Source of the DNA: Halarcobacter mediterraneus
GTDB taxonomy: Bacteria > Campylobacterota > Campylobacteria > Campylobacterales > Arcobacteraceae
Assembly (NCBI RefSeq): GCF_004116625.1
Contig: NZ_NXIE01000001.1
Span: 434,001-498,000 of the forward strand
DNA: 64,000 nt
Direction of reading: 5' to 3'
Below the pieces are notes generated by a model that saw only the letters and a program-made list of their open reading frames with translations, made no database searches and was not told where the DNA came from. Positions 1 to 42,200 of the stretch are shown piece by piece. Made by a program: the position numbers and the translations under genes. How positions within the stretch are numbered: the stretch's first letter is position 1; the number at the start of each line of letters is the position of its first letter.

Positions 1-1506
1 TTTTCCAGTTTCATAATGCTTAGCAAACATTTTTAATACTTCCTTATCATAAGAGAAGTATTCAAGGAATTGTGATGGGAACTCAACAACATCCCAAGCT
101 ACACCTGCAATACCACTTACAAAAGCTTCAGGTACTTTACTAAATAAGTGATGTAAGGCATGTCCCATCTCATGGAACAGTGTTACAACATCAGAATGTC
201 TTAATAATGAAGGAACGCCCTCTTTTGATTGTGGGAAATTACATACAATATATGCAGTAGGAAGCTTTTTATTTCCATCCATATCTACATAATGAGAGTG
301 CCAATTGTTCATCCAAGCACCACCTCTTTTCTCTTTTTTAGCTTCTAAATCAATATATATTCTTGCAAAGACTTTTGAGTTTTCTTTTATATTACATACT
401 AATACATCTTTATCCCAAGCTTTTGCATCTTTTATTTCTTCAAACTCTACATTAAAGATCTTGTTTAAGAAACTAAAAAAACCATTTAATACAGAAGTCT
501 TTTCAAAATAAGGTCTATAATATTCTTCATCAATATCATATTTTTCTTCTTTTAACTTCTCACTATAATAAGCTAAATCAAAACTTTTTATATCAGAAAT
601 GCCATCTTTTAAAGCATACTCTTTTAACTCTTCTATCTCTTCTAATGCTCTATCTTTACCTTTTTTTGCAAGTTCTTCTAAGAAGTTAATTACCTCTTCT
701 TCTTTTTTAGCCATTTTAGTTGAAAGTGAGTATGAAGCATAATTTTCAAAACCTAGAATTTTCACTTTTTCATCTTTTAAAGAAAGGATTTCTTCAATTA
801 TTTTTCCATTCTGGGGTGCTCTTGTCGAGTATGCTTTATAAATTTCTTCTCTTCTTTGTCTATTACTTCCATAAGTAATATAAGCTAAATAAGATGGCAT
901 TTGAAGTGTGAATTTATATTTAGTTTTTCCATCTTCTTCAAACTTAGCAAACTCTAAATCAGAGGCCGGAATTTCTTTTACATCTTCATAATCTTCAATT
1001 ATCATTTCATATTCATTTGTTGCATTTAAAAGATTTTGTGAAAACTTATGCGATAACTCACTTAATCTTAAATTTATCTCTTTAAGTCTTTCTTTAATTT
1101 CGTTATTTAAATGACAACCACTTAATTCAAAATCTCTAATCTCATTTTCAAGTACTTTTTTTTGTATATCATTTAATGATCTATAACTCTTATCTTGTAT
1201 AACTTTTAAAGACCTATAAATATTATCATTCTGTGAAACTTCAGTTTCGTAGTTTGAGATTAGAGGAAGGCACTCTTCATAAACTTTTTGCGTTATTTCT
1301 GAATTTTTAACCGAATCTATATGAAAGATTGGTGTAATAAAATCACTTAATCTCTCCCCTACTTCTTCATAAGGTTTTACAAAGTTTTTATAACTTTTTT
1401 CTTCTATTTTTAATAACTCATCAATTTTATTTTTACTATCTTCTAAAATTTCTTCTAATCTTTTTTTACTATTTTCTAAATCTGTTAGATCAAACTCTTT
1501 AAACAT
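1..1506 (-). CDS. prlC: M3 family zinc oligopeptidase (oligopeptidase A-like), 3' end outside window
   Basis: Cytosolic zinc metallopeptidase that degrades short peptides, including products of larger proteases. The frame is open from the ATG at 1506 to the window edge (502 codons). It contains the M3 signature FHEMGHALHHL with zinc-binding HExxH at residues 445-449. The N-terminal part is the usual helical, charged region of the family. The C-terminal part, including the third zinc ligand region, lies beyond base 1. It starts 17 bp after prmC and reads as the last visible gene of hemW-prmC-prlC. The family call is firm; the choice between PrlC and Dcp-like names rests on length and N-terminus and is less certain. 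Confidence 0.9.
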   Translation of the reverse strand, partial: MFKEFDLTDLENSKKRLEEILEDSKNKIDELLKIEEKSYKNFVKPYEEVGERLSDFITPIFHIDSVKNSEITQKVYEECLPLISNYETEVSQNDNIYRSLKVIQDKSYRSLNDIQKKVLENEIRDFELSGCHLNNEIKERLKEINLRLSELSHKFSQNLLNATNEYEMIIEDYEDVKEIPASDLEFAKFEEDGKTKYKFTLQMPSYLAYITYGSNRQRREEIYKAYSTRAPQNGKIIEEILSLKDEKVKILGFENYASYSLSTKMAKKEEEVINFLEELAKKGKDRALEEIEELKEYALKDGISDIKSFDLAYYSEKLKEEKYDIDEEYYRPYFEKTSVLNGFFSFLNKIFNVEFEEIKDAKAWDKDVLVCNIKENSKVFARIYIDLEAKKEKRGGAWMNNWHSHYVDMDGNKKLPTAYIVCNFPQSKEGVPSLLRHSDVVTLFHEMGHALHHLFSKVPEAFVSGIAGVAWDVVEFPSQFLEYFSYDKEVLKMFAKHYETGK

Positions 1507-1523: not shown

Positions 1524-2354
1524 TTATATTTTTTTAAATTCAACTGTAAATCCTCTATCAAACTTTTCATAATCTTGATAAAATGAGTAGTCTTTTATCA
1601 AAAAATTATTTAAATAGTTTTCCAAAGGTTTCTTCTGATCATATCCCATTTCACAAAGTAAATATTTAATCTCTCTTTTTGAAGTCTCTTCAATGATATT
1701 TTTTAATAATTCATCTCCAACTTCTCCTCCAAAAAGTGCATTTTGAGGTTCATATTTTACATTTTGAGGAAGCTTATAATCGTTTGCAATATATGGAGGA
1801 TTTGAAATTGTCATATAAATTTCTTCATCTTCACTAATATTAGTATATAAATCACTTTTGATAAAAGTGATTCTATCTTCTACATTATGTTTTTTTGCAT
1901 TCTCTTTTGCTAGAGCAATTGCATCATCATTTATATCAACAGCTATAATTTTAATATCTTTTATTAAAAGTGCTAACATAACTGATATAATTCCAGAACC
2001 TGTCCCTATTTCTAAAACTGTTTTATTTTTAGTATCTTTTAAAATCTCAACAGCATTGTCAACAAGAAGTTCAGTTTCTGGTCTAGGAATTAGAACATTT
2101 TCTTTCACTAAAAAACTTTCTCCATAAAAAGATGCTCTACCAATTAGATACTCTAAAGGATAATCTTTTTTTCTTTTCTCTATTAGTTTTTCTAATTGTT
2201 TTATTTCACTAAACTCATTATTATAATTAAGATGCAACCATATATTGTTTTTTTCTAAAATATGACATATAAATATTTCAACTTCTTTAGCTGGAATATG
2301 AGTTACATCTTTTAATTGTTTAGAATAATTCCTTACAACTTCTTTTATTGTCAT
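1524..2354 (-). CDS. prmC: Release factor glutamine N5-methyltransferase PrmC
   Basis: Methylates the glutamine of the GGQ motif in RF1/RF2 using S-adenosylmethionine, which makes peptide release efficient. The 276-residue length is normal for the family. The SAM-binding motif VLEIGTGSGIISV lies near residue 115 and the catalytic NPPY (ISNPPYIAND) near residue 186; the N-terminal helical bundle precedes them. It sits between hemW and the M3 peptidase on the same strand, 45 bp after hemW and 17 bp before prlC, so it is probably cotranscribed. No anomalies seen. Confidence 0.93.
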   Translation of the reverse strand: MTIKEVVRNYSKQLKDVTHIPAKEVEIFICHILEKNNIWLHLNYNNEFSEIKQLEKLIEKRKKDYPLEYLIGRASFYGESFLVKENVLIPRPETELLVDNAVEILKDTKNKTVLEIGTGSGIISVMLALLIKDIKIIAVDINDDAIALAKENAKKHNVEDRITFIKSDLYTNISEDEEIYMTISNPPYIANDYKLPQNVKYEPQNALFGGEVGDELLKNIIEETSKREIKYLLCEMGYDQKKPLENYLNNFLIKDYSFYQDYEKFDRGFTVEFKKI

Positions 2355-2399
2355 TTATATCCTTACTTCTATAAAAGTTTTTATTATATCAAAAAGAGT

Positions 2400-3461
2400 T
2401 TACTCTAATATATAAAGAGCAATTTCATCTGCTAAAAGAAAGTTTTTGTTATAAACTTTCTTATCTTTTATATATATTTTTTCTTCTTTTATTAAGTGTT
2501 CTACTCTTTTTAATTCATCTTGAGTAAAAATAGAAAGTTCTACTCCTAAAATACATCTAAAACCTAAAAGTACTTTTTCTACTTTAATATCTTCATTTGA
2601 TAGTTCTTCTATTTCATAAGAAATTGGATTTTTGATATATTCATCTAAATCTTTACTTGGGTAATATCTTCTATTGTTTATATATCCAACAGCTCCAGCT
2701 CCAACACCTAAATACTCTTTATGTTCCCAGTATCCAAAATTATGTTTTGATTGGAACCTTTTATCTTTTGCAAAATTTGATATTTCATATTGAGAAAATC
2801 CATTCTTTTCTATAAAGTCAAATATTTCATAAGATAACGCTTCATCATCTATTTTTACTTCACTTTTATTGAAAAATTTTGTTCCTTCTTCTAAGGTTAA
2901 AGAATAAGCACTTAAGTGAGTAACTGGTAATGAAAAAGCTTGTAATAAATCTTCTTTAATATTATTTATTGTGTCAGTTCTAAAACCATAAATTATATCG
3001 CAGTTAATACTATCAAAACCTATACAAGAGGCATTTTGTATAGCAGTTATAGCACTATTTGCATTATGTGCACGATTTAATTCTTTTAGCTTATTTTCTT
3101 GAAAACTTTGAACACCAAAACTAATACGATTAACACCAAAATTCATCATCTCTTTTTGCCACTTTCTAGTAGCAGAATTAGGATTTGATTCAGTTGTTAT
3201 TTCTGTATTCTCATCAATATAATTTTCTAATATTTTAAAAGTTTCTTCATAATATTTTGGGTTTATTGTACTTGGAGTCCCTCCTCCTATAAATATTGTT
3301 TCTAACTTCTTATTTTGACAATATTTGTATAAATCATGTTGTAACTGTTTATTCAAAGCTTTCATATATTCTTTCTTTAAATTAAACTTTGTTGTATATG
3401 AATTGAAAGCACAGTAGTGACATTTACTATCACAAAAAGGTATATGCATATATAAAAGCAA
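2400..3461 (-). CDS. hemW: HemW-like radical SAM protein (heme chaperone family)
   Basis: Member of the HemN/HemW radical SAM family. The N-terminus MHIPFCDSKCHYCAF carries CX3CX2C for the 4Fe-4S cluster. At 353 residues it is the short HemW type and lacks the CXCX extension of true HemN; a genuine hemN lies at 43331. HemW proteins bind heme and are thought to deliver it to membrane targets. The start is taken as TTG at 3461 because AGGA at 3469-3472 lies 7 nt upstream and the resulting LLYMHIPFC matches the family N-terminus; the internal ATG at 3449 is the alternative. First gene of hemW-prmC-prlC. Confidence 0.88.
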   Translation of the reverse strand: MLLYMHIPFCDSKCHYCAFNSYTTKFNLKKEYMKALNKQLQHDLYKYCQNKKLETIFIGGGTPSTINPKYYEETFKILENYIDENTEITTESNPNSATRKWQKEMMNFGVNRISFGVQSFQENKLKELNRAHNANSAITAIQNASCIGFDSINCDIIYGFRTDTINNIKEDLLQAFSLPVTHLSAYSLTLEEGTKFFNKSEVKIDDEALSYEIFDFIEKNGFSQYEISNFAKDKRFQSKHNFGYWEHKEYLGVGAGAVGYINNRRYYPSKDLDEYIKNPISYEIEELSNEDIKVEKVLLGFRCILGVELSIFTQDELKRVEHLIKEEKIYIKDKKVYNKNFLLADEIALYILE

Positions 3462-3480
3462 TTTTTAATCCTAGGTTTAT

Positions 3481-3486
3481 TATAAT
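3481..3486 (+). promoter_or_regulatory. Candidate -10 box upstream of rppH
   Basis: TATAAT in the short gap between divergent hemW and rppH, 30 bp before the rppH start. The -35 region is only T/A-rich, as is common in Campylobacterota. It would drive rppH-lysC-hobA-holB-folP. Single-motif evidence. Confidence 0.4.
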
Positions 3487-3516
3487 ATCGAGCTAATTAT
3501 AAGGGAATTATTATTT

Positions 3517-4011
3517 ATGACTGATAAAGAAAACAAAGAAATTGAAAATAAAAAAAATTACAGACCAAATGTAGCAGCAATAGTATTATCAGCAAAATAT
3601 CCAGAAAAATGTGAGATTTTTATTGCTTCAAGAACTGATGTAGAAAATGCTTGGCAATTTCCTCAAGGGGGAATTGATGAAGGTGAAAACCCTAATGAAG
3701 CTTTGCATAGAGAACTTGAAGAGGAAATAGGTACAAAGGATATTGAGATAATTGCAGAATACCCAAAATGGGTAAGTTACGATTTTCCTCCTGCTATTGC
3801 TAAAAAAATGCACCCTTATGATGGCCAAATTCAGAAATATTACTTAGTTAAACTAAAAAAAGGCGCAAAAATAGATATAAACACTGAAATACCAGAGTTT
3901 AGCGAATATAAATTTGTTCCTACTGAGAATATTTATGATTATATTACATTTTTCAAAAGAACTGTTTATAAGCAGGTTTTAAAATATTTTAAAAAAGAGG
4001 GTTATATTTAA
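3517..4011 (+). CDS. rppH: RNA pyrophosphohydrolase RppH (Nudix)
   Basis: Removes pyrophosphate from triphosphorylated 5' ends of RNA and so starts mRNA decay; older annotations call it dinucleoside polyphosphate hydrolase. The Nudix box is complete: GG at residues 51-52 followed by the E-ALHRELEEEIG segment. The fold opens with the typical YRPNVAAIVL strand and WQFPQGGIDEGE. The 164-residue length is normal. It has an AAGGG ribosome-binding site and is first in the run leading into lysC, 4 bp away. This rppH-lysC-hobA-holB-folP order is familiar from Campylobacterota. Confidence 0.92.
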   Translation: MTDKENKEIENKKNYRPNVAAIVLSAKYPEKCEIFIASRTDVENAWQFPQGGIDEGENPNEALHRELEEEIGTKDIEIIAEYPKWVSYDFPPAIAKKMHPYDGQIQKYYLVKLKKGAKIDINTEIPEFSEYKFVPTENIYDYITFFKRTVYKQVLKYFKKEGYI

Positions 4012-4015
4012 AAAA

Positions 4016-5227
4016 ATGTTAAAAGTTTTAAAATTTGGTGGAACAAGTGTAGGAACACTTGAAAGAATACAAAACGTAGCCAATATAATAAAAAAAATAA
4101 AAGATGAAGGTCATGATGTGATTGCAGTAGTTTCTGCAATGAGTGGTGAAACAAATAAATTGTTAGAGTATGCAGCTAATTTTTCTAATAATCCTGAAGC
4201 AAATGAAATAGATATGCTATTAAGTTCAGGAGAAAGAGTTACTTCTGCCCTACTTTCTATTGCTTTAAATGAACAAGGATATAAAGCAACTTCAATGAGT
4301 GGAAGAGAAGCAGGGATTGTAACGGATAATGCTCATACTAAGGCTAGAATTGAATCAATAGATACAACGAATATGAAAAATGCACTTAATGATGGAAAAG
4401 TTATTATTGTTGCAGGGTTTCAAGGTGTAACAGAAGACTCAAAAAGAGTTTCAACTTTAGGTAGAGGTGGTTCAGATTTAACTGCAGTTGCCATTGCTGG
4501 TGCTATTGAAGCTGATGTTTGTGAGATATATACTGATGTTGATGGAATTTATACAACAGATCCAAGAATTGAACCAAGAGCTAAAAAACTAGATAAAATT
4601 TCTTACGATGAAATGCTAGAACTAGCTTCTTTAGGTGCAAAGGTTTTACAAAATAGATCTGTTGAAATGGCGAAAAAATTAAATGTAAATTTAGTATCTA
4701 GAAGTAGCTTTACGCCAGAAGTTGAAGGTACATTAATAACTAAGGAAGAGAATATTATGGAAAAACCAGTTGTAAGTGGTATCGCATTAGATAGAAATCA
4801 AGTAAGAGTTGGTATGTATGGAGTAATAGATAGACCAGGAATTGCATCATCTATTTTTACAGCCCTTGCAGATGCAAATATAAATGTCGATATGATTGTT
4901 CAGACTAGAGGTCTTGATGGAACAACTGATTTAGATTTTACAATCCCAAGAACAGATTGGGAAGATTGTAAAAAAGTAATGGAAAAATTTAAAACTGAAA
5001 CAAAAAATATTGATTATAATGATACTATTTGTAAAGTATCTATTGTTGGTGTAGGTATGAAATCTCATACTGGAGTAGCTTCAAAAGCTTTCAGTGCCTT
5101 AGCTAATGAAAATATTAATATTAGAATTATTTCAACAAGTGAAATAAAAATTTCTATGGTTGTTGAAGAAAAATATGCAGAGTTAGCTGTAAGAGCATTA
5201 CATGATGCATACAATTTGGATAAATAA
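4016..5227 (+). CDS. lysC: Aspartate kinase
   Basis: Phosphorylates aspartate, the first step toward lysine, diaminopimelate, threonine and methionine. KFGGTSVG at residues 5-12 is the nucleotide-binding signature and VSTLGRGGSDLTAVA is the kinase core. Two ACT domains occupy roughly residues 265-400 (RPGIASSIF... and SHTGVASKAF...), the usual site of feedback inhibition by lysine or threonine. The 403-residue length is that of the monofunctional enzyme. It follows rppH by 4 bp and precedes hobA by 2 bp, so it lies in a tightly packed operon. Confidence 0.95.
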   Translation: MLKVLKFGGTSVGTLERIQNVANIIKKIKDEGHDVIAVVSAMSGETNKLLEYAANFSNNPEANEIDMLLSSGERVTSALLSIALNEQGYKATSMSGREAGIVTDNAHTKARIESIDTTNMKNALNDGKVIIVAGFQGVTEDSKRVSTLGRGGSDLTAVAIAGAIEADVCEIYTDVDGIYTTDPRIEPRAKKLDKISYDEMLELASLGAKVLQNRSVEMAKKLNVNLVSRSSFTPEVEGTLITKEENIMEKPVVSGIALDRNQVRVGMYGVIDRPGIASSIFTALADANINVDMIVQTRGLDGTTDLDFTIPRTDWEDCKKVMEKFKTETKNIDYNDTICKVSIVGVGMKSHTGVASKAFSALANENINIRIISTSEIKISMVVEEKYAELAVRALHDAYNLDK

Positions 5228-5229
5228 AA

Positions 5230-5781
5230 GTGCAAGAATTTCTGAATTGGACAGTTGATACAATTAGGGAAGATAGACTTATCTCCCCTTGGTTAGAAGA
5301 AAAAAAATATGAATGGGTTCCTTTAGTATCTAAATCTATAATAAATCTTTTTGAAAAAGGTTGTTCTATTTTAGTAATTACAGATAGTGATAGGGATTGG
5401 TTTTTAAAATATATTTTGACAAATATTAATTCACAAAAAAAGAATAGACCTTTTTTACCTTTTTACAACTTTAAGTCTTTTTATAAAGATTTAGATGAAG
5501 TTAAAACTGAAGATGAAATAAGATTTATCAAAGATATGTTAAATATATCTTTTCCAAATGGATATTGTTTTTGGTATATAGGGAAAAGTCAAGATGCAAG
5601 AGCTATTTTACCAAAATTTTCAAAGAATTCTTTTCTTTGGATTTTTGATGAAGAAATACAAGATGCTTTTAATTTAAAAAATAATGATGAAGCTTTAGAT
5701 ATGAAACTTCTTCAAATGTTTAGACTTTATGATAAAACTTTAAGTGCAGCTCTTTTTGCAGAAATTAATGTAGAAAATTAA
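5230..5781 (+). CDS. hobA: HobA, DnaA-interacting replication initiation factor
   Basis: HobA is the Campylobacterota DnaA-binding protein, a structural homologue of DiaA that forms tetramers and scaffolds DnaA at oriC. Recognition rests on the N-terminus (FLNWTVDTIREDRLISPW), the 183-residue length and the position between lysC and holB, as I recall it from Helicobacter pylori. The start is GTG, 2 bp after the lysC stop, and the stop TAATG overlaps the holB start by 1 base. Coupling a DnaA regulator to a clamp-loader subunit gives a small replication module inside an otherwise metabolic operon. Confidence 0.88.
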   Translation: MQEFLNWTVDTIREDRLISPWLEEKKYEWVPLVSKSIINLFEKGCSILVITDSDRDWFLKYILTNINSQKKNRPFLPFYNFKSFYKDLDEVKTEDEIRFIKDMLNISFPNGYCFWYIGKSQDARAILPKFSKNSFLWIFDEEIQDAFNLKNNDEALDMKLLQMFRLYDKTLSAALFAEINVEN

Positions 5782-38637: not shown

Positions 38638-39321
38638 ATGAAATATGAAATATTAAAAGATTTAAAGATTCTATTTGTTGAAGATGAAAATAATATTTCT
38701 AAATTACTTAAAAATGCAGTTAGTGACTATTTTTATTCTTTTATTACAGCAAAAGATGGTAAAGAAGGAATTGAAAAATATAAAAATACAAGCCCTGATA
38801 TAGTTATATCAGATATTATGATGCCAAATCTTGATGGATTAGAGATGACTAAAGTATTAAGAGAAATAGATGAGAGCTTACCTATTATTATATTAAGTGC
38901 TTTTTCAGATAAAGAAAAACTATTAAAAGCTATAGATTTAGGAATAAACAAATATTTTATAAAACCTTTTAATCCTGAAGAGTTATTAGAATACCTTTCT
39001 ACTTTGGCTGAAAAACTAGATAAACAAAGAATACTTTGTATAAATAAACATTTTTCTTATGATAAAAACTCAAAGAACTTATATGAAAAAGATGAATTAA
39101 TTAAATTATCAAAAAGAGAAAAAATGTTTCTTTCTTTACTTATAAAAAATAAAAAAACTTTTGTATCAAATGAATTAATGAAAAAAGAATTATGGGAAGA
39201 AGCTGAGGTTTCACCTGAAAGAATAAGAACTTTTATAAAGAGATTTAGACAAAAAACAAAAAAAGAGTTGATAAAAAATATTTCAGGACAAGGATATCTA
39301 ATTTCTAAAGACGACATCTAA
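38638..39321 (+). CDS. OmpR-family response regulator, partner of the Aer-PAS kinase
   Basis: 227 residues: receiver domain 1-120 with the phospho-acceptor Asp in DIVISDIMMPNLDG and conserved Lys in YFIKPFNPEE, followed by a winged-helix DNA-binding domain (LSKREKMFLSLL..., ERIRTFIKRFRQK...GQGYLIS). Its ATG directly follows the kinase stop, so the two form a two-component pair. Its 3' end overlaps the convergent nrdG by 24 bp. Confidence 0.92.
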   Translation: MKYEILKDLKILFVEDENNISKLLKNAVSDYFYSFITAKDGKEGIEKYKNTSPDIVISDIMMPNLDGLEMTKVLREIDESLPIIILSAFSDKEKLLKAIDLGINKYFIKPFNPEELLEYLSTLAEKLDKQRILCINKHFSYDKNSKNLYEKDELIKLSKREKMFLSLLIKNKKTFVSNELMKKELWEEAEVSPERIRTFIKRFRQKTKKELIKNISGQGYLISKDDI

Positions 39322-39969
39322 AGTTTTATGAAGTTTTGTAGTATCAAAATTTTTTTTGCTATCTTTTAAATTTGCAAAATTCTCAGTTTCTAAGAAATTT
39401 TGAATAAAAAAAGTTTTATTATAGCCTTCATCTTTTAATACTTTTTGCATAAAATTAATATCTTCTTCATTTAATAAGTCTTTATGAAGAGTTGTTCTTA
39501 CCTCATATTCAATAGAAGAATTTATTAAATACTTTAAAGATTTTATAAATCTATCATAAAATTTACCTTTTGTTATAAACTCATATTTTTCTTGTGTTCC
39601 TTTAAAATCTAAAGATACAAAATCAAGAAATTTCTTTTTTAACAACTGTTTTAAAAGTTCTGGATTAGTACCATTCGTATCTAATTTTATTTTAAAACCT
39701 AGTTTTTTTATTTTTTTACAAATTTCTAATAAATCATGAAGAGAGGCTTCTCCTCCACTTAAAACAACAGAATCAAGAAGCCCTACTCTTTTCATAAGAA
39801 AATCCATTAAATCTTCAACTGTATATTGTCCATTTTGAGATGTCACAATATCATAATTATAACAATATTGACATCTCATATTACAATGAACAAACCACAC
39901 TATACAAGATAAATGGTTTTCATAATCAACAGTTGTAAAAGGTGTTATATTATAGATAATCTTTTTCAA
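39298..39969 (-). CDS. nrdG: Anaerobic ribonucleotide reductase activating protein
   Basis: Radical SAM activase that places the glycyl radical on NrdD. The cluster motif is CNMRCQYC (CX3CX2C) near residue 31, then VVLSGGEASLHD. The 223-residue length fits. The start is TTG at 39969, 20 bp inside the preceding 52-codon gene, with AAAGGG about 9 nt upstream; translational coupling is likely. It must act on a glycine encoded by that neighbouring small gene rather than by the large NrdD gene. Confidence 0.9.
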   Translation of the reverse strand: MKKIIYNITPFTTVDYENHLSCIVWFVHCNMRCQYCYNYDIVTSQNGQYTVEDLMDFLMKRVGLLDSVVLSGGEASLHDLLEICKKIKKLGFKIKLDTNGTNPELLKQLLKKKFLDFVSLDFKGTQEKYEFITKGKFYDRFIKSLKYLINSSIEYEVRTTLHKDLLNEEDINFMQKVLKDEGYNKTFFIQNFLETENFANLKDSKKNFDTTKLHKTLDVVFRN

Positions 39970-40108
39970 GAAATTTTACCCTTTGTCTATGCTCACCTTT
40001 TTTACCAATGTTAAAACTTTCTACTGGTCTATGATATCCCATTACTCTCGTATATACAATACACTTTGTTCTTTTTTCTTGTAACTTTTTAGGCTCTAAG
40101 CTTTTCAT
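39950..40108 (-). CDS. Separate C-terminal glycyl-radical piece of class III ribonucleotide reductase (NrdD)
   Basis: 52-residue protein matching the extreme C-terminus of ordinary NrdD: TKCIVYTRVMGYHRPVES, then FNIGKKGEH and RQRVKF. RVMGY holds the candidate radical glycine, Gly24. The upstream 703-residue NrdD ends after its Cys-rich zinc segment without this motif. The ATG is 20 bp inside the nrdD 3' end in another frame and is preceded by AGGAGG at 9 nt (40118-40123), so it is built for its own translation. It overlaps the nrdG start by 20 bp. Too short for standard gene calls and easily missed. Confidence 0.82.
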   Translation of the reverse strand: MKSLEPKKLQEKRTKCIVYTRVMGYHRPVESFNIGKKGEHRQRVKFLEKDYL

Positions 40109-42200
40109 TATTTAATTCCTCCTCTAGAATTTCTTCATCACATTTTGGACAATATTCATATTCTCCACTAATATAACCATGTTTTGGACATATTGAAAAA
40201 ACTGGTGTAATAGTGATATATGGTAAAGTAAAATTTGAAATAACATTTTTTACTAATTTTCGACAAACTTCTGCACTAGATAATTTTTCTCTCATATACA
40301 AATGAAGTACTGTTCCCCCTGTATATTTCCCTTGCAAATCATCTTGTAAAGTAAGTGCTTTAAATACATCATCCGTATAGTCAACTGGAAGTTGAGAAGA
40401 GTTTGTATAATAAATATTTTCTCCAAAACCTGCTTGTAAAATATCTTTATATCTCTTTTTATCTTCTTTTGCAAAACGATAAGTTGTTCCTTCTGCTGGT
40501 GTTGCTTCAAGATTATATAAATTTCCAGTTTCTTCTTGATAGGAAATCATTTTATTTCGCATAAATTCTAGAATCTCATTTGCAAAATTTATCCCAAAAT
40601 TACTAGTTATATCAAACTCTTTTTCTGAAAAATTTATTATCATCTCATTTATGCCATTAACACCAATTGTTGAAAAATGATTATTAAAATTTGGAAGATA
40701 TCTTTTTGTATAAGGGAATAGTCCTCTTTCATACATTTCATTTACAAAAACTCTTTTTTTCTCTAAAGTAGATTTAGCTAAATCCATTAAGTCTTCTAAT
40801 CTTTCAAAAAGTTTTTCTTTATTTGCTTTATATAAAAAGCCTAGTCTAGCCATATTTATTGTCACAACACCTATACTTCCTGTCATTTCAGCACTTCCAA
40901 AAAGTCCACCACCTCTTTTTAAAAGTTCCCGTAAATCTAATTGTAATCTACAACACATTGATCTAACATGTCCTGGTTTATAAGCTTTTTCATTTGGAAT
41001 CAAATTACCATTATCATCTTTTATATATTGACTTCCTATAAAATTTTGGAAATAAGAACTTCCTATCTTTGCAGTATTTTCAAAAAGTAAATCTGTATTT
41101 TCTCCATACCAATCAAAATCTTCAGTTAAATTTACAGTAGGAATAGGAAAAGTAAAAGGTTGCCCTGTTTTATCACCTTCTGTCATCACTTCATAATATG
41201 CTTTATTTATCATATTCATTTGTTTTTGAAAAGCTTTATATGTCATATTTGTAAGTTTTTCAAAACCTTTAGATTTAGCTATTTCTAAAAGTTCTTCATC
41301 TTCTAAGCCTTCAAATAAATGTTTCTGATTTTTAGTAGGTGTTTGATCTTTTAAATCACTAGGAACTGTCCAATCAATTGTAATATTGGTAAAAGGGCTT
41401 TGTCCCCAACGGGCAGGAACATTTAAATTATAAATAAAACTTCTAATACTTTTTTTTACCTCTTCAAAAGATAATTTATCTTTAAAAACATATGGAGCTA
41501 AATAAGTATCAAAAGAAGAAAAAGCTTGTGCTCCTGCCCATTCACTTTGTAAAATTCCTAAAAAATTTGCCATTTGTCCTAAAGCTTCTCTAAAATGATT
41601 TGGAGCATAACTTTCAACTCTTCCTCTTACTCCATTAAATCCTTCATCTAATAAAACTCTTAAACTCCAACCTGCACAATAACCACTTAAACAATCTAAA
41701 TCATGTATATGATAGTCTGCATTTCTATGAGCATAACCTTCTTCTTTTGAGTAAACCTTATCTAACCAATAATTTGCAATAACTTTTCCTGCTGTATTAT
41801 TTATTAATCCAGCATGAGAATAACCAGTATTTGAATTTGCATTAATTCTCCAATCACTTCCATTTATATATTCTTCGATTGTTTGAGTAGAGTTAATATA
41901 AGTAGTATCTTCATCTAATCCTAATACTTGTTCTCTTTGTAATTTATGTAAATGCCTATAAAGCATAAAAGATTTTAATTCATCAAAATATCTTGCTTTA
42001 AATAATTCATTTTCAATAATATCTTGAATATCTTCAACTGCAACAACTCTTTTTTCTTCAATTTTTTCTAAAACATTAAAATAGATGGAGTAATCAAAAA
42101 CAGTATGAACACTTTTAAAAGCTTTTTTTATAGCATCTTTTATTTTATAAGAATGAAATGCTTCATTTTTACCATCTCTTTTTAATATACTTTCTACCAT
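40089..42200 (-). CDS. nrdD: Anaerobic ribonucleoside-triphosphate reductase, large piece lacking the glycyl-radical tail
   Basis: Class III ribonucleotide reductase making dNTPs without oxygen. 703 residues: N-terminal ATP-cone (1-90, ILKRDGKNEAFHSYKIKDAI), ten-stranded barrel with active-site Cys in VRSMCCRLQL, and a C-terminal zinc segment FSICPKHGY...YEYCPKC. It stops 17 residues after CPKC; the RVxGY glycyl-radical motif that should follow is encoded by the separate gene at 39950-40108. Genes are ordered nrdD, C-terminal piece, nrdG with 20-bp overlaps. Confidence 0.93.
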   Translation of the reverse strand: MVESILKRDGKNEAFHSYKIKDAIKKAFKSVHTVFDYSIYFNVLEKIEEKRVVAVEDIQDIIENELFKARYFDELKSFMLYRHLHKLQREQVLGLDEDTTYINSTQTIEEYINGSDWRINANSNTGYSHAGLINNTAGKVIANYWLDKVYSKEEGYAHRNADYHIHDLDCLSGYCAGWSLRVLLDEGFNGVRGRVESYAPNHFREALGQMANFLGILQSEWAGAQAFSSFDTYLAPYVFKDKLSFEEVKKSIRSFIYNLNVPARWGQSPFTNITIDWTVPSDLKDQTPTKNQKHLFEGLEDEELLEIAKSKGFEKLTNMTYKAFQKQMNMINKAYYEVMTEGDKTGQPFTFPIPTVNLTEDFDWYGENTDLLFENTAKIGSSYFQNFIGSQYIKDDNGNLIPNEKAYKPGHVRSMCCRLQLDLRELLKRGGGLFGSAEMTGSIGVVTINMARLGFLYKANKEKLFERLEDLMDLAKSTLEKKRVFVNEMYERGLFPYTKRYLPNFNNHFSTIGVNGINEMIINFSEKEFDITSNFGINFANEILEFMRNKMISYQEETGNLYNLEATPAEGTTYRFAKEDKKRYKDILQAGFGENIYYTNSSQLPVDYTDDVFKALTLQDDLQGKYTGGTVLHLYMREKLSSAEVCRKLVKNVISNFTLPYITITPVFSICPKHGYISGEYEYCPKCDEEILEEELNNEKLRA
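40118..40123 (-). promoter_or_regulatory. Strong ribosome-binding site of the split NrdD C-terminal gene
   Basis: AGGAGG on the minus strand, 9 nt before the ATG at 40108, lying inside the end of nrdD. It is one of the best Shine-Dalgarno matches in the window and argues that the downstream 52-codon frame is initiated in its own right. Confidence 0.8.

Follow-up and report, generated by a model that had tools for sequence, protein, structure and literature searches.

A class III ribonucleotide reductase of Halarcobacter mediterraneus with its glycyl-radical motif on a separate small gene

Introduction

In class III ribonucleotide reductase (RNR) the activase NrdG makes a radical that is stored as a glycyl radical, and it is here that oxygen cleaves the enzyme (PMC3019208, available text). 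RNR phylogeny papers assign the radical domain to the C-terminal end of NrdD (PMC9669993, PMC9531940, available sections), where it lies beside the finger loop (PMC9669993, available sections). Free-standing glycyl-radical proteins are known for another enzyme, YfiD and phage T4 Y06I being the only validated spare parts for pyruvate formate-lyase (PFL) in the available text of PMC8683613, which adds that others may exist. Divided RNR genes are also on record, as the available text of PMC3653736 describes phage Aeh1 nrdA, split by a mobile element, and phage phiAS4 nrdD, which is in three pieces from an unknown cause. Here we describe a 64,000 nucleotide stretch of Halarcobacter mediterraneus (GCF_004116625.1, contig NZ_NXIE01000001.1, positions 434,001 to 498,000; the whole stretch is called the window, and coordinates are counted within it) in which the class III nrdD is divided into a large gene for the catalytic chain and a small gene carrying the glycyl-radical motif, an arrangement which very probably represents a two-component enzyme.

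The nrdD locus of the window

All genes of the locus lie on the minus strand. The large gene (42200..40089) encodes 703 amino acids, matching the Pfam NRDD profile PF13597 over positions 2-531 of 562 (E 2e-158) and the family NF006126 (PRK08270) with 1085 bits over 2-657 of 684. Its product has an ATP-cone at residues 4-86 (41943..42191; PF03477, E 2.5e-16), a finger-loop motif MCCR (40958-40947), which is of the double-cysteine class III type by the motif classes in the available text of section 9 of PMC9669993, and a putative zinc-binding segment, CPKHGYISGEYEYCPKC (residues 671-687; 40140..40190), which aligns with the C-terminal ribbon of solved NrdD structures. The original prediction, made from the letters of the window, was right to place a zinc segment in this chain, although its pattern is CxxH...CxxC (C671, H674, C684, C687) rather than four cysteines.

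The large chain ends in ...CPKCDEEILEEELNNEKLRA, at NRDD position 531 and without an RVxGY motif. That motif is found, as TRVMGYHRP, on a 52 amino acid protein, MKSLEPKKLQEKRTKCIVYTRVMGYHRPVESFNIGKKGEHRQRVKFLEKDYL, encoded by a small gene with an ATG start (40108..39950) and an AGGAGG ribosome-binding site (40123-40118) 9 nt upstream; this protein matches PF13597 at 531-562 of 562 (E 4.1e-7) and the phage family phrog_4132 (E 3.8e-8). Alignment to the C-terminus of PF13597/TIGR02487 identifies Gly24 (codon 40037..40039) as the predicted radical glycine. The small gene is followed by nrdG (39969..39298, TTG start), which encodes a 223 amino acid radical S-adenosylmethionine (SAM) activase (TIGR02495, NrdG2, E 3.3e-57; PF04055). 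The large and small frames overlap by 20 nt, as do the small gene and nrdG, and all of these open reading frames (ORFs), overlaps and the ribosome-binding site had been correctly placed in the original prediction. The two pieces abut at position 531 of the NRDD profile and so add up to a complete NrdD, with the break falling after the zinc segment and before the radical loop, as had been proposed. The locus thus has the barrel with its ATP-cone, the finger loop, the zinc segment, the RVxGY glycine and the adjacent activase of a class III RNR, but the radical glycine is outside the barrel chain and so we regard it as a variant of class III NrdD rather than a standard member. The NCBI annotation names both nrdD genes and does not comment on the split.

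The whole H. mediterraneus genome (2.83 Mb, completeness rated 100%) was searched for another complete nrdD, and the large and small pieces were its sole NRDD matches; it also has one class I/II-type large RNR subunit. A genome search found no PFL-like enzyme and no Gly_radical domain (PF01228), which leaves the NrdD barrel as the only visible partner for the small protein. That the small gene is a PFL spare part was therefore rejected for this genome, the small protein itself matching PF13597. Among 11 genomes of the same genus, the ratio of nonsynonymous to synonymous polymorphism (pN/pS) was 0.089 over 40 codons of the small gene, compared to 0.143 in the large gene over a segment of 110 codons, which shows that the small gene is under purifying selection and is not a chance ORF. 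Cys16, eight residues before Gly24 (codon 40061..40063), is almost invariant: all 104 distinct cellular sequence segments that were compared have it, and so do 79 of the 80 viral copies. A role for it as a fourth zinc ligand tethering the two subunits was considered and dropped, because CxxH...CxxC can already supply four ligands and the nearest fused chains carry the same cysteine.

Distribution in cellular genomes and plasmids

The split NrdD recurs in Campylobacterota, Bacteroidota, Pseudomonadota and some phages. Among 60 genomes (the own genome and its relatives) 39 have NrdD, and in 37 of these it is split, each with a small piece (in G011 the small piece is in the same frame behind a stop, and in G024 and G026 the large gene is fragmented). 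The other two are full-length (G019 and G048; loci L003 and L005) and of another type, with 22-25% identity. The proposed search of Campylobacterota for this arrangement thus found it in most NrdD-bearing relatives. In a sample of the whole order, NrdD was found in 101 of 199 genomes; one (G351) had barrel fragments only, among the matches listed. Fourteen stretches from 12 genomes of this sample were inspected, most picked for odd-looking table entries, and in 13 there was a large ORF ending after the zinc segment together with a small motif (in G337 an ATG-only scan gives no small ORF), whereas the remaining stretch (G218, contig C75) has just a lone small gene. Exactly one large and one small piece were present in all 19 genomes of our named loci (15 Bacteroidota and 4 Campylobacterota, including Sulfurospirillum arcachonense, all of unstated completeness), and an even draw of 80 Bacteroidota gave seven with NrdD, five split (two of them already among the 19) and two full-length.

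Complete plasmids with the split were found in Sulfuricurvum, Sulfuricystis, Cupriavidus, Azospira, Aquabacterium, Bradyrhizobium, Shinella, Cereibacter, Paracoccus and Thiothrix, the last (L142) being the only gammaproteobacterium with both parts and having a large gene that reads as two frames. Both genes are annotated in eight of the plasmid records fetched. Seven of these call the large gene ‘ribonucleoside triphosphate reductase’ and give the name ‘nrdD’ to the small one, which is a ‘hypothetical protein’ in the remaining record. Plasmid pHG1 of Cupriavidus necator H16 has the same split (676 and 66 amino acids, then nrdG; NF006126, 1131 bits). The NrdD of Pseudomonas aeruginosa, which is 76 kDa according to the available text of PMC12284477, may be a further candidate. 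The original prediction that the arrangement is lineage-wide but unremarked holds for the lineage, and no account of a class III RNR with its radical domain split off turned up in a literature search that had most subscription journals outside its reach; the prediction was too narrow, as other groups have the split too.

Some genomes have additional copies. G317 carries the split nrdD operon twice (L260, L261), with the large gene of one copy in two overlapping frames, and G218, which has a split operon, has a lone second small gene (L264; contig C75, 2422-2640) with a C5-cytosine methyltransferase gene some 600 nt away; this may be a mobile element.

Small genes without a large partner

Scanning IMG/VR with the small-subunit alignment gave 139 contigs with a relative, of which 80 were kept (57 of them distinct, among the 78 readable in the thinning). 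In 79 of the 80 no large subunit was present within the fetched flanks, and only one (L185) had a large subunit or nrdG there. When 64 of these 79 were searched as whole records, which may themselves be fragments, none had a barrel; 63 matched the C-terminal end of NRDD, one of them with an extra scrap at 503-529, and one had no match at 1e-3. Genes six places from the viral small gene match terminase, portal, major head and tail tape-measure families (among 25 of 212 families listed), so the contigs look largely like tailed phages. Ten of ten small proteins tested (the window's, that of C. necator and eight viral or prophage copies) matched phrog_4132, which is annotated ‘unknown function’, within columns 100-157, in its C-terminal part only, with E from 3.8e-8 (window) to 4.1e-12 (L171). 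G028 has a further small gene, whose contig also carries genes for a terminase large subunit, a major head protein and a reverse transcriptase, and a holin-like gene. A small ‘nrdD’ gene is also carried by two Allochromatium plasmids, in one of them next to a CHAP-domain protein; neither the flanks that were fetched nor the 60 records listed out of 116 show a large gene for them.

These phage proteins could be decoys or inhibitors of host NrdD, or serve some other purpose, rather than being spare radical parts. Some of the small genes adjoin lysis genes, perhaps indicating expression late in infection: in L186 the small gene is flanked by a weakly holin/Rz-like gene on one side and a lysozyme-type gene on the other, in L206 it is near an endolysin and a weakly spanin-like gene, and endolysin phrog_7 was matched by 5 of 106 genes adjacent to the viral small gene. 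The control was 81 genes six places away, and because only 25 of its 212 families were listed an enrichment of lysis genes is suggested but not shown. However, the residue at the radical position is glycine in 80 of 80 aligned viral copies (one of the two search patterns contained this glycine), Cys16 is missing from only one of them, and the G028 prophage protein is identical to the host's own at 46 of 49 positions. We consider a decoy or other role unlikely, while leaving it some weight, and prefer to read the phage proteins as spare radical subunits.

Fused queries gave 80 viral NrdD loci, of which 73 are fused, three are fragments and four lack the motif in frame, two of these four (L332 and L342) having a separate small gene about 1.4 and 2.0 kb downstream. 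In L332 (4285-5656) the small gene is followed by a ThyX-type gene. A collection of annotated phages had no match at E 0.01 to the small protein of the window, and a viral query of proteobacterial type gave weak matches (E 0.07 to 3) in 10 records, several annotated as whole NrdD; with nothing firm from that collection, the lone small genes rest on IMG/VR contigs, other genome contigs and the two plasmids. A faecal phage (L137, MT835493.1) encodes an NrdD that covers all of NRDD (1-562) and has a glutaredoxin/thioredoxin-like domain fused at its C-terminus (1983-4388), followed by a pyridine-nucleotide disulphide reductase (4395-5300), and this suggests a thiol reductant for that branch of NrdD.

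A true split or one chain

A programmed frameshift or read-through might join the two frames into an ordinary one-chain NrdD, as the original prediction had allowed. The 20 nt overlap in the window is compatible with this, as are genomes in which the parts share a frame with a stop between them (L041, L055; G299, G346). However, at 111 loci (near-duplicates kept) the TRVMGY codons start 25-912 nt after the large stop and use all three frames (68, 24 and 19 loci), so there is no fixed frame relation or site. Moreover, at some loci a whole gene stands between the parts: in three Campylobacterota this encodes a NifU_N protein (L010, 3117-3608; L052, 5118-5576; L066, 5425-5904), which perhaps feeds the iron-sulphur cluster of NrdG, and in L267 it is a radical-SAM gene, presumably nrdG. 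A Shine-Dalgarno-like site precedes the ATG of the small gene in 66 of 66 scored Campylobacterota loci, compared to 0 of 39 in Bacteroidota, by a test that is lenient and has no chance baseline; a missing Shine-Dalgarno site is usual in Bacteroidota. As the small gene also occurs alone in viral contigs, we think joining of the frames very improbable.

Alternatively, the radical glycine could be in the large chain, at the HGY of the zinc segment, with the small protein an accessory. What favours this is a 1999 assignment: Siedow et al. reportedly named Gly650 of C. necator NrdD as the radical site, the G650A mutant being DNA-deficient, and the protein is said to be complete at 76.2 kDa. In the 676 amino acid chain residue 650 is the HGY glycine of CPTHGYLAG. 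Fused relatives (Acidiphilium, L117; Actinomyces oris, L143) carry both this CPxHGY motif, as CPVHGY, and RVMGY in one chain, from which the HGY glycine is most likely part of the zinc segment, and in models of one-chain NrdD it is the C-terminal motif that aligns with the small protein. A mutant at the HGY glycine could fail for structural reasons, and the Gly650 assignment is a possible MISASSIGNMENT. A radical site in the large chain has, we judge, very little chance of being correct.

That the gene is decayed or mis-assembled and the real NrdD continuous is the least credible alternative of all, as nothing in the window points to it and, although single broken large genes exist elsewhere (Thiothrix L142, one of the two G317 copies), the split is conserved across independent assemblies, complete plasmids included, and the low pN/pS of the small gene speaks against decay. 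Frameshift, assembly error and pseudogene were thus all rejected on the conserved split, varied spacing and intervening genes, and the original prediction of a true split rather than a sequencing error is upheld by the related genomes, the intervening genes and the lone viral copies.

Evolutionary history

Two quick trees, of 56 and 53 rows, were built from the barrel after removal of the radical part, with Shimodaira-Hasegawa-like approximate likelihood ratio test (SH-aLRT) support. The cellular split rows, with phage L342 in the second tree, form one group (SH-aLRT 99), within which the only fused rows are Acidiphilium and A. oris. The split and fused labels change three and four times on the trees, and none of 500 label shuffles gave as few. 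This suggests one main split plus re-fusions in Acidiphilium and A. oris, possibly one or two events, while the split of L332, which sits among fused relatives, seems to have arisen independently.

A proposed two-component enzyme

A fold was modelled for a Sulfurimonas locus (L041) in which a single in-frame stop between the parts was read through as Q. With an alignment of 78 rows (46 of them fused viral NrdDs) the model had a mean predicted local distance difference test (pLDDT) score of 90.8 and a predicted template modelling (pTM) score of 0.86, with 85-94 for the small part in blocks of ten. It aligns with the NrdD of Thermotoga maritima (model 80..754 to 2..647 of 4u3e; Z 31.9, root mean square deviation 2.8 over 541 residues), P. 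copri (82..752; Z 33.6) and T4 (123..736; Z 33.0), these ranges giving only the first and last aligned residues, and all three alignments extend past the radical loop at 726-730. A Protein Data Bank sequence search with the 52 amino acid protein gave nothing at E 10. The docking of the small part in the barrel that was originally predicted is supported by this model, which indicates compatibility with docking in the usual place rather than binding.

We therefore propose, with considerable confidence, a two-component class III RNR made of a large subunit and a separately translated radical subunit of about 45-70 amino acids. The large subunit would supply the ATP-cone, barrel, MCCR finger loop and zinc segment, NrdG would generate the radical on Gly24 of the small subunit, and the loop of the latter would dock in the barrel beside the finger-loop cysteines and start nucleotide reduction. 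A small subunit cleaved by oxygen would then be exchanged for a fresh one. Because no radical glycine is present in the large chain, the enzyme should depend on the small protein at all times and not just once it has been damaged. The lifestyles of the hosts, microaerophiles and denitrifiers, seem to fit an exchangeable radical part. Whether the radical domain is exchangeable by design under changing oxygen, with phages of PHROG 4132 carrying only the peptide to keep up the host's deoxynucleoside triphosphate supply, we regard as evenly balanced.

Several points weigh against this proposal. Complex formation, a radical on the small subunit and its exchange are things that we infer. Six of the 101 NrdD in the order sample are full-length (G048, G363, G309, G352, G201 and G019; of these only G048 and G019 were compared with the NrdD of the window), and so the split is common but not universal. 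A first fold from 48 alignment rows with two fused homologues gave a pLDDT of 32-44 for the last 34 residues, and in 5 of 21 NrdD structure rows the alignment stops at model residue 664-665, short of the radical part. To some extent native docking was put into the model from the start, because it is one read-through chain and was aligned with 48 fused homologues. The trees are quick, have SH-aLRT support only and place the fused rows on long branches.

If the proposal is correct, cells would have to renew a cleaved 6-kDa peptide and not an 80-kDa chain, the phage small subunit would be the RNR counterpart of T4 Y06I and, to our knowledge, this would be the first obligate in-trans glycyl-radical cofactor. 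For many bacteria, including C. necator H16, where the published radical site may be wrong, the textbook view of this RNR class would change, and the phage family PHROG 4132 would gain a testable function. There would also be a glycyl-radical enzyme that comes naturally in two pieces, so that installing and exchanging the radical could be studied separately from the barrel. Length filters can hide such small radical subunits; one RNR phylogeny discarded sequences of <400 residues (PMC9531940, available text).

Comparison with known systems

The locus shares with the class III NrdD of Escherichia coli, T4, T. maritima and P. copri, with their NrdG, the same ATP-cone, barrel, finger loop, zinc segment, radical-loop motif and adjacent nrdG, but in those enzymes the radical loop is in the same chain, whereas that of the window is on a separate protein. 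The NrdD of C. necator H16 (pHG1) belongs to the same NF006126 family and has the same split. An RNR chain divided between genes is also seen in class II, as NrdJa and NrdJb. Aeh1 nrdA and phiAS4 nrdD are divided like the nrdD of the window, but neither is described, in the available text on them, as having a conserved radical-domain subunit. PHROG 4132 matches the small proteins and carries no assigned function. A likeness in layout is seen with E. coli YfiD/GrcA and phage T4 Y06I, which are small free-standing glycyl-radical proteins for the PFL barrel, and docking of the small protein of the window in its own barrel is predicted. The YfiD/GrcA family differs, as PF01228 homology was not found in the genome of the window and the small protein belongs to PF13597. 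Furthermore, PFL retains its own glycine and YfiD only repairs it, whereas the large chain of the window has none.

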